This document shows, piece by piece, positions 45,873 to 46,085 of a stretch of DNA of 64,000 nucleotides. The notes below the pieces were generated by a model that saw only the letters and a list, made by a program, of their open reading frames with translations, was not told the origin of the DNA and searched no databases. Every line of letters starts with the position of its first letter. The first letter of the stretch is position 1. The position numbers and the translations under genes are program-made. Source of the stretch: Asticcacaulis taihuensis (GTDB lineage Bacteria; Pseudomonadota; Alphaproteobacteria; Caulobacterales; Caulobacteraceae); NCBI RefSeq assembly GCF_900100255.1, contig NZ_FMTS01000002.1, forward strand, positions 149,400 through 213,399. The letters are read 5' to 3'.

Positions 45873-45901
45873 TTTACGCGCCCGATCTTTCCCTCTATAA
45901 G
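45873..45901 (+). promoter_or_regulatory. Promoter of the asd attenuator leader
   Basis: TTTACG (45873-45878) and TATAAG (45896-45901) are separated by 17 bases. Transcription would begin about seven bases further on, at or next to the leader ATG at 45909, giving a leaderless mRNA. Confidence 0.65.
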
Positions 45902-45908
45902 CCCCGCC

Positions 45909-45986
45909 ATGTCCATGATGACCACCACAAAACCGACAATGACACCGACCCGTATGCGGGGCGGTCCTGTCGTGCTGGCGGTTTAA
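45909..45986 (+). CDS. Threonine/methionine-rich leader peptide of asd
   Basis: A 25-residue peptide starting MSMMTTTKPTMTPT, with six Thr and five Met, ending in VVLAV. Both amino acids are end products of the aspartate pathway, of which asd is the second step. The peptide ends 99 bases before asd, just ahead of a terminator hairpin. Ribosome stalling at the Thr/Met codons when those amino acids are scarce would prevent the terminator from forming. There is no ribosome binding site before the ATG; translation should start at the very 5' end of the mRNA, as described for the trp leader of Sinorhizobium. Confidence 0.8.
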   Translation: MSMMTTTKPTMTPTRMRGGPVVLAV

Positions 45987-46024
45987 CAGCAGACACCGGA
46001 CAAAGCCCCGCGAAAACGCGGGGC
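45956..46024 (+). terminator. Attenuator: antiterminator and terminator segments before asd
   Basis: GCCCCGCG (46005-46012) pairs with CGCGGGGC (46017-46024) to form the terminator stem with an AAAA loop. GCGGGGC at 45956-45962, inside the leader-peptide frame, can pair instead with 46005-46011 as the antiterminator. A further GCCCCGC at 45901-45907 lies at the presumed start site. The U-tract after the stem is weak (GGTCTGTATT). Confidence 0.75.
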
Positions 46025-46085
46025 CGGTCTGTATTCCACAACCATACCCCTGCGTTTCCGCCTAATTTTCAAGGAGACGTGACTT

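Follow-up and report, generated by a model that had tools for sequence, protein, structure and literature searches.

Ribosome-mediated attenuation is an old class of control, and there are precedents both for leaderless attenuators and for Shine-Dalgarno switches. Descriptions of amino-acid attenuators in Gram-negative bacteria usually present them as transcription terminators, and the enteric thrABC operon is preceded by a Thr/Ile attenuator (Rfam Thr_leader). At ermC, a ribosome stalled by a drug while translating the leader peptide causes the hairpins to refold, which exposes the Shine-Dalgarno of the following gene. One account names ermC-type leaders as atypical and as controlling translation (PMC2965389). 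The trpL leader RNA of Sinorhizobium meliloti is reported to have its 5' end at the leader-peptide start codon, AUG (PMC7298713), and the LEU element is described before leuA in Actinobacteria (PMC1262725). A literature search, with the comparative surveys Vitreschak 2004 and Lopatovskaya 2010 outside its scope, found no publication describing a leader of asd from Alphaproteobacteria.

The leader described here lies in a 64,000-nt stretch of Asticcacaulis taihuensis DNA (hereafter the window) and precedes a second aspartate-semialdehyde dehydrogenase gene, asd2. All evidence on it was obtained by computation. Its features, in window coordinates, are as follows.

45873..45901, forward strand: predicted promoter, with TTTACG (45873-45878), a 17-nt spacer and TATAAG (45896-45901); predicted +1 at or beside the leader ATG
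45909..45986, forward strand: putatively leaderless leader peptide MSMMTTTKPTMTPTRMRGGPVVLAV, 25 codons (six Thr, five Met) followed by TAA (45984-45986)
45949..45952, forward strand: segment 1 (CCCG), over the last Thr/Arg codons; pairs with segment 2
45956..45962, forward strand: segment 2 (GCGGGGC); partner is segment 1 or segment 3
46005..46012, forward strand: segment 3 (GCCCCGCG); partner is segment 2 or segment 4
46016..46024, forward strand: segment 4 (ACGCGGGGC); partner is segment 3 or segment 5; no U run behind
46047..46059, forward strand: segment 5 (CCCCTGCGTTTCC); its 5' part pairs with segment 4 (one bulge in the window)
46073..46080, forward strand: segment 6, the asd Shine-Dalgarno region GGAGACGT; 8 bp with 46052-46059 in the minimum free energy (MFE) fold
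46086..47114, forward strand: asd2, second aspartate-semialdehyde dehydrogenase, 342 aa (TIGR01296, NF011456, Pfam PF01118/PF02774)

The original prediction had proposed a Thr/Met-rich leaderless attenuator of the classical plan before asd, and most of its layout was borne out: the 25-codon frame with ATG at 45909, the promoter boxes, GCGGGGC, the perfect stem GCCCCGCG (46005-46012) / CGCGGGGC (46017-46024) and asd starting at 46086 are all where it had placed them. The layout is also kept in relatives. A -35-like box starts 35-39 nt before the start codon in 104/107 leaders (rate in shuffled upstreams, 0.027) and a TANNNN -10-like box lies 11-16 nt before it in 107/107; from this promoter position the mRNA would be leaderless, its 5' end being predicted from the promoter spacing. 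The start codon (GTG in 26/107 leaders) is 50 nt ahead of segment 2 in 81 of the 90 family leaders (range 47-53), and in the same 90 the stop codon falls 20-28 nt past segment 2, giving frames of 23-27 codons.

The gene behind the leader was assigned as asd_B by TIGR01296 (E 8.9e-129) and by the equivalog NF011456, and its closest solved structures are the aspartate-semialdehyde dehydrogenases 3vos and 3tz6. It is a second copy, a status absent from the original prediction, because a further asd, 50% identical, lies in the same genome. An asd match at 47-51%, taken as the housekeeping type, is present in each of the 25 genus genomes searched; asd2 is present in 12 of them (73-100% identity), and second asd matches at 46-47% were found in G003, G009, G010 and G022. 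No leader was found at 18 housekeeping asd loci (L014-L031), either by eye or with the covariance model. One genus genome without asd2 carries a stretch of 61 residues (G020:C1:360956-361138) that matches the end of asd2 at 69% identity and is perhaps a remnant. Non-Alphaproteobacteria among the best 80 asd2 relatives are nearly all actinobacterial (L122-L190, 61-67% identity); since these copies are closer to asd2 than is the housekeeping asd of the same genome (47-51%), the comparison hints at horizontal transfer. In the window, genes for a ParE-like toxin and a RelB-family antitoxin (45202-45806, reverse strand) lie directly upstream of and divergent from asd2, a pair absent from the 4-kb G017 locus, and a gene for a DUF1153 protein (47181-47462, reverse strand), which we take to be the CtrA-inhibitor family SciP, is convergent with asd2.

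The leader is a real and conserved feature. A search of 390 family genomes identified asd2 at at least 69% identity in 92, a count that may miss partial genes in incomplete genomes, and upstream DNA was read for 91. A full leader precedes 90 of these 91, including 12/12 of the genus, where it is kept although the DNA farther upstream differs; such conservation exceeds chance. In the remaining copy (L083, from G220) the leader is cut at segment 3 and joined to the asd2 coding sequence, by deletion or assembly collapse, and in the 92nd genome (G226) asd2 and a leader sit at the ends of two different contigs. Searches of 299 order genomes and 385 class genomes gave 52 and 11 matches, respectively, with E values no higher than 1e-130. 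Among copies from the order's other families, 13/24 have the leader and 11/24 lack it; further class copies have it in 2/9 (L239, L241) and lack it in 6/9, and in the ninth (L237) asd2 is preceded by another type of short frame, with a U-run terminator. The leader is also present in a Novosphingobium bin and in Sphingosinicella microcystinivorans (L114, L116).

Covariance model R1, run on 149 family genomes, gave 48 matches at E 5.5e-5 or better, with a single match in the genome of the window. By position, 39 of the 48 precede asd2, seven precede another asd (L250-L256), one is at a contig end and one is a decayed copy without a gene, so that the gene is asd in 46/46 strong family matches with a gene behind. 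The decayed extra leader (L257, G011:C25:2974-3113) is in a genome that also has an intact asd2 leader. Eight of 318 class genomes had a match; beyond four genomes already known, the other four matches precede asd (L246-L249; genes checked with NCBIfam at L246 and L249). Seven of these 11 other asd genes were compared (L246, L247, L249, L250, L252, L253, L256): they share 56-87% identity among themselves, 44-46% with asd2 and 40-44% with the housekeeping gene of L027. As the leader precedes an asd clade only ~45% identical to asd2, it follows asd function across clades. Ten family genomes lacking full-length asd2 gave no match, and neither, up to E 1, did the controls (18 housekeeping asd loci, 19 asd2 loci judged leaderless, of which 17 are distinct, and 59 loci of the actinobacterial asd2 relatives).

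Weaker resemblances were seen at the margins of the model. A Reyranella locus (L121) matched at E 0.0014; L121 and L237 have short frames before asd2 with few Thr codons and T-rich tails after the hairpin (GGGGCCTTTGT), and may be remote relatives that use a different code. Six family matches were weak (E 0.002-0.008): L258, L259, L261, L262, L263 and L264. L258 and L263, minus-strand hits in two genomes of one genus, each have a short frame with hairpins upstream of a GNAT acetyltransferase gene (PF13302), and L261:181-303 has a short frame (MTSTIAPLRGVGGRARD) before a methyltransferase gene; L259 and L264 look like chance repeats. L262 is taken up below.

In 107 leaders the short frame contains clusters of codons for pathway end products, ATKIITRKTTRxGGA being a typical peptide. 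Thr makes up 31% of core residues, Lys 13.9%, Ile 11% and Met 4.5%, compared with 5.4%, 3.1%, 5.3% and 2.0% among 14,971 residues of long window ORFs; together these four make up ~60% of the core versus ~16% of the background. Residues drift among Thr, Ile and Lys as composition and spacing stay, and in L009 and L010, of the same genus, Ile replaces most Thr (MSMMTVIKAIIKPAR). ATT is used for 84% of Ile in leaders versus 10% in 32 asd2 genes, and AAA for 77% of Lys versus 7%, an A+T-rich preference that could alternatively keep the region unfolded. Third codon positions are more variable (entropy 1.03) than first and second (0.79, 0.83). From these sequences we read the control codons as specifying Thr and Ile, which is made from Thr, and possibly Lys. 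Methionine, which the original prediction had named as a second sensed amino acid, was rejected as a general feature: core Met is 0 in 56 leaders, 1 in 37, 2 in 11 and 3 in 3, so 93/107 have at most one, and the partners of Thr are Ile and Lys. The five Met codons belong to the species of the window and recur identically in G017, and Met richness there may be a local trait. Alignment of upstream regions in relatives, proposed at the outset, thus upheld the Thr codons, the stems and their covariation and failed to uphold the Met codons.

It is hardly credible that the short frame encodes a small functional protein or arose by chance, with the hairpins serving an unrelated purpose, since, conserved as the C-terminal half of the peptide (GGA-SG-R) also is, the Thr/Ile/Lys drift at constant composition and spacing, the preference for ATT and AAA and the finding of asd behind every strong family match with a gene all speak against it.

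The window RNA alone folds with the pairings 1:2, 3:4 and 5:6 (MFE -64.2 kcal/mol, z -3.26), a set designated here the OFF state; the ON state comprises 2:3 and 4:5. The part GCGTTTCC of segment 5 pairs with the asd Shine-Dalgarno region. In 51 diverse leaders, ON pairing was 97.8% versus 41-66% in slid controls, and OFF pairing 90.2% versus 44-55%. Unfiltered counts in the same leaders gave six pairs with changes on both sides for ON (at most one in slid controls) and nine for OFF (2-7 in slid controls), each with 0/500 shuffles. Mutually exclusive hairpins over and after the control codons are general: 1:2, 2:3 and 3:4 are paired in 98.8, 99.4 and 97.8% of cells in alignment A3. Rows of A3 are shifted at segment 4 (L222, L225) and at the Shine-Dalgarno (five Hyphomonas-type rows), so some both-side changes in the unfiltered counts, including those of the Shine-Dalgarno slide test, are spurious. 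Counts were therefore also taken with rows judged misaligned dropped, giving pairing in 355/357 cells for 2:3, 341/343 for 3:4 and 382/392 for 4:5 (the last two without L222 and L225), and 285/307 cells in 44 rows for segment 5 with the Shine-Dalgarno.

Compensatory changes were found for 2:3 and 3:4 in two lineages each (Hyphomonas-type, G-C to A-U, and the AT-rich L222/L225/L229/L231), for 4:5 in three (the species of the window, L229/L231 and Hyphomonas-type) and for segment 5 with the Shine-Dalgarno in two (L229/L231 and L009/L010) plus the doubtful row L074. The claim that two arms compete for one partner is supported, the alternative pairings 2:3 and 3:4 both showing covariation. In L229/L231, segment 4, segment 5 and the Shine-Dalgarno flank are altered together (AUGCGGGG, CCCCGCAU, GAUGC), which would be the expected pattern if segment 5 serves both partners. 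By eye, the same plan in different letters precedes asd in L246-L248 (GUCUCUC:GAGAGAC at the Shine-Dalgarno) and in L253-L255. Covariation rests on few lineages because most rows have near-identical arms. Controls were weaker for the Shine-Dalgarno helix than for the full states: by itself it has six both-side-change pairs (15 cells), a +2-column slide also gives six (10 cells), and its count of pair types was not above shuffles (107/500).

We consider it probable that the leader is a ribosome-mediated attenuator of asd2 that senses charged tRNA-Thr and tRNA-Ile, perhaps also tRNA-Lys, and that in this family it acts on translation initiation and not on transcription termination. In the mechanism that we infer, the RNA would start at the AUG of the leader peptide, as the promoter position suggests. 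With amino acids plentiful, the ribosome would clear the Thr/Ile codons and hairpins 1:2 and 3:4 would form, leaving segment 5 free to pair with the asd Shine-Dalgarno (OFF). With Thr or Ile short, the ribosome would stall on the ACN/ATT run and cover segment 1, so that 2:3 would pair; segment 4, thereby released, would pair with segment 5 and open the asd Shine-Dalgarno (ON).

The output was assessed by the cost of opening the Shine-Dalgarno. Over the 90 family leaders the mean cost was 7.94 kcal/mol in OFF and 5.01 kcal/mol in ON; OFF exceeded ON by >1 kcal/mol in 74/90, the reverse held in 1/90, and 16/90 showed no gain >1 kcal/mol. The difference was 2.93 in real leaders versus 0.44 with the linker shuffled (real greater in 77/90), with OFF exceeding the shuffled linker by >1 in only 64/90. 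Replacing segment 4 with random 9-mers left the cost near OFF (7.39 at 65% GC, 7.64 at 50%), and ON was below the random-9-mer cost by >0.5 in 80/90. A letter shuffle of segment 4 (cost 5.88) kept much of the ON effect, which suggests that G-richness matters more than exact order. Of 30 further leaders, in several of which segment 4 was picked by hand, OFF exceeded ON by >1 in 24; no gain >1 was seen in L222, L225, L241, L251 (1.0), L254 and L255, and OFF was below the shuffled linker in L114, L222, L225, L249 and L254. Mean unpaired probability of the Shine-Dalgarno was also tried as a test of the two states and was set aside in favor of opening cost, as it showed no ON gain (ON 0.27, OFF 0.30) and if anything the reverse, ON being more open by >0.1 in four leaders and OFF in 11. 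Opening cost alone differs between the states because CUCC:GGAG can survive in the ON fold, and the translational claim thus rests on opening cost, conservation and covariation. By fold, pairings and opening cost, the default structure is predicted to hide the Shine-Dalgarno and the competing pairing to free it, as is characteristic of ermC-like control.

The original prediction had instead read the stem as a terminator, in line with classical transcription attenuation. With a Thr/Ile code in place of Thr/Met, that plan would make 3:4 an intrinsic terminator despite its poor U tract and 2:3 the antiterminator. This is the main rival. The logic of 1:2, 2:3 and 3:4 would be identical, and a terminator-type attenuator is described for the Caulobacter ilv leader (PMC4117421). 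In the window, however, no U run follows the stem (CGGTCTGTATTCC follows instead), and a terminator scan of 44500-64000 did not list the site. Across relatives, only 0-4 of the 8 nt after 3:4 are T in 103/107 leaders, the window included, and conserved segment 5 and its Shine-Dalgarno pairing would have no role. Some T occurs elsewhere: one run of 4 and one of 5 within 12 nt were seen in 94 leaders, and T of 8 is 5 in L255 and 4 in L249 and L256. The classical combination of a G+C-rich hairpin and a U run, lacking in the window, is found in L222, L225, L229 and L231, the only leaders of the 107 with 7 T of 8, and an ancestor or sister form may be a terminator. In L222 and L225 the U run comes without the conserved segment 5 and its Shine-Dalgarno pairing, and the Shine-Dalgarno is open (OFF 0.9 and 0.8 kcal/mol); L229 and L231 have both the U run and the Shine-Dalgarno switch (OFF 5.6 and 7.3, ON 0.2 and 1.7). 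With two distant relatives terminator-only and two having both outputs, the output of the leader seems to have been converted during evolution. On energies, U-run counts, conservation and covariation we place the output at translation; we regard termination as the main output as unlikely, though deserving some weight. Supported from the original plan is a putatively leaderless leader-peptide attenuator before a lone asd; unsupported is a transcription terminator as its output in this lineage, where a hairpin predicted to sequester the Shine-Dalgarno takes that place.

Alternatively, stalling might control Rho-dependent termination or decay of an untranslated OFF mRNA, with the hairpins merely protective. 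Rho acts on untranslated RNA, and such an effect could be combined with translational control; the complementarity among segments 4, 5 and 6 and its compensatory changes are not predicted by it, and as the explanation of the leader we judge it very improbable. A tetracycline-responsive uORF of S. meliloti does undergo premature termination, by a mechanism that the available text terms an unexpected attenuation mechanism (PMC12218461).

Translational control of this design gains in likelihood, and in interest, from the same chassis with a different sensor. One of the weakest model matches (L262:191-357) proved to be a His-run leader before hisS (TIGR00442, E 1.3e-111), and in 199 family genomes His-run leaderless leader peptides with the same segment plan were found at 19 of the 25 best-matching hisS loci (L265-L289). 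Ten of the 19 were parsed by pattern, and with a 17-nt start region held open, OFF exceeded ON by >1 kcal/mol in 10/10 (mean difference 5.4 kcal/mol, versus -0.3 when shuffled). At six hisS loci (L269, L270, L276, L277, L282, L287), segment 6 is paired at an ATG located well ahead of the hisS start codon, which would fit an additional short frame separating the leader from hisS.

Taken together, these observations lead us to propose, tentatively and at slightly less than even confidence, that Caulobacteraceae and relatives own modular translational amino-acid attenuators, in which a leaderless sensor (Thr/Ile for asd, His for hisS) sits on a common six-segment chassis ending at the Shine-Dalgarno, and that within the order the output of the asd version shifted from pure terminator (L222, L225) through hybrid (L229, L231) to translational switch (nearly all others), while following asd across two ~45%-identical clades. 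The same sensing frame occurs next to a terminator, next to a Shine-Dalgarno switch and next to both, so each step in the change of output can be traced and tested. For Caulobacterales, the leader would place the precursor shared by Thr, Ile, Met and Lys under control at the second asd, the housekeeping asd copies tested being free of it.

Compared with known systems, the asd2 leader is apparently a familiar control idea in an undescribed form, and no Rfam family matched it; Thr_leader in particular gave no match to the leader of the window at gathering score or up to E 1. Like the enteric thrABC attenuator, it would combine a Thr/Ile-codon-rich leader peptide and alternative hairpins with control of the aspartate pathway, but it precedes a second asd copy, has a frame predicted to be leaderless and mostly no U-tract terminator, and adds a segment 5 that pairs with the asd Shine-Dalgarno. 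With ermC it would share a ribosome stall on a leader peptide that frees the Shine-Dalgarno of the next gene, although ermC senses a drug-stalled ribosome rather than amino-acid supply and is unrelated in sequence. S. meliloti trpL is likewise alphaproteobacterial with an RNA 5' end at the leader AUG, as predicted for asd2, but has Trp codons and a transcription terminator. The LEU element similarly joins a control-codon leader peptide to pairing that involves the Shine-Dalgarno of the gene; unlike in the asd2 leader, the Leu codons themselves pair with the Shine-Dalgarno in a pseudoknot, and its description leaves the mode of regulation unresolved. Within the scope of the literature search, what is new in the asd2 leader is the asd target, the joint Thr/Ile(/Lys) code and an output that moves between terminator and Shine-Dalgarno within one order.
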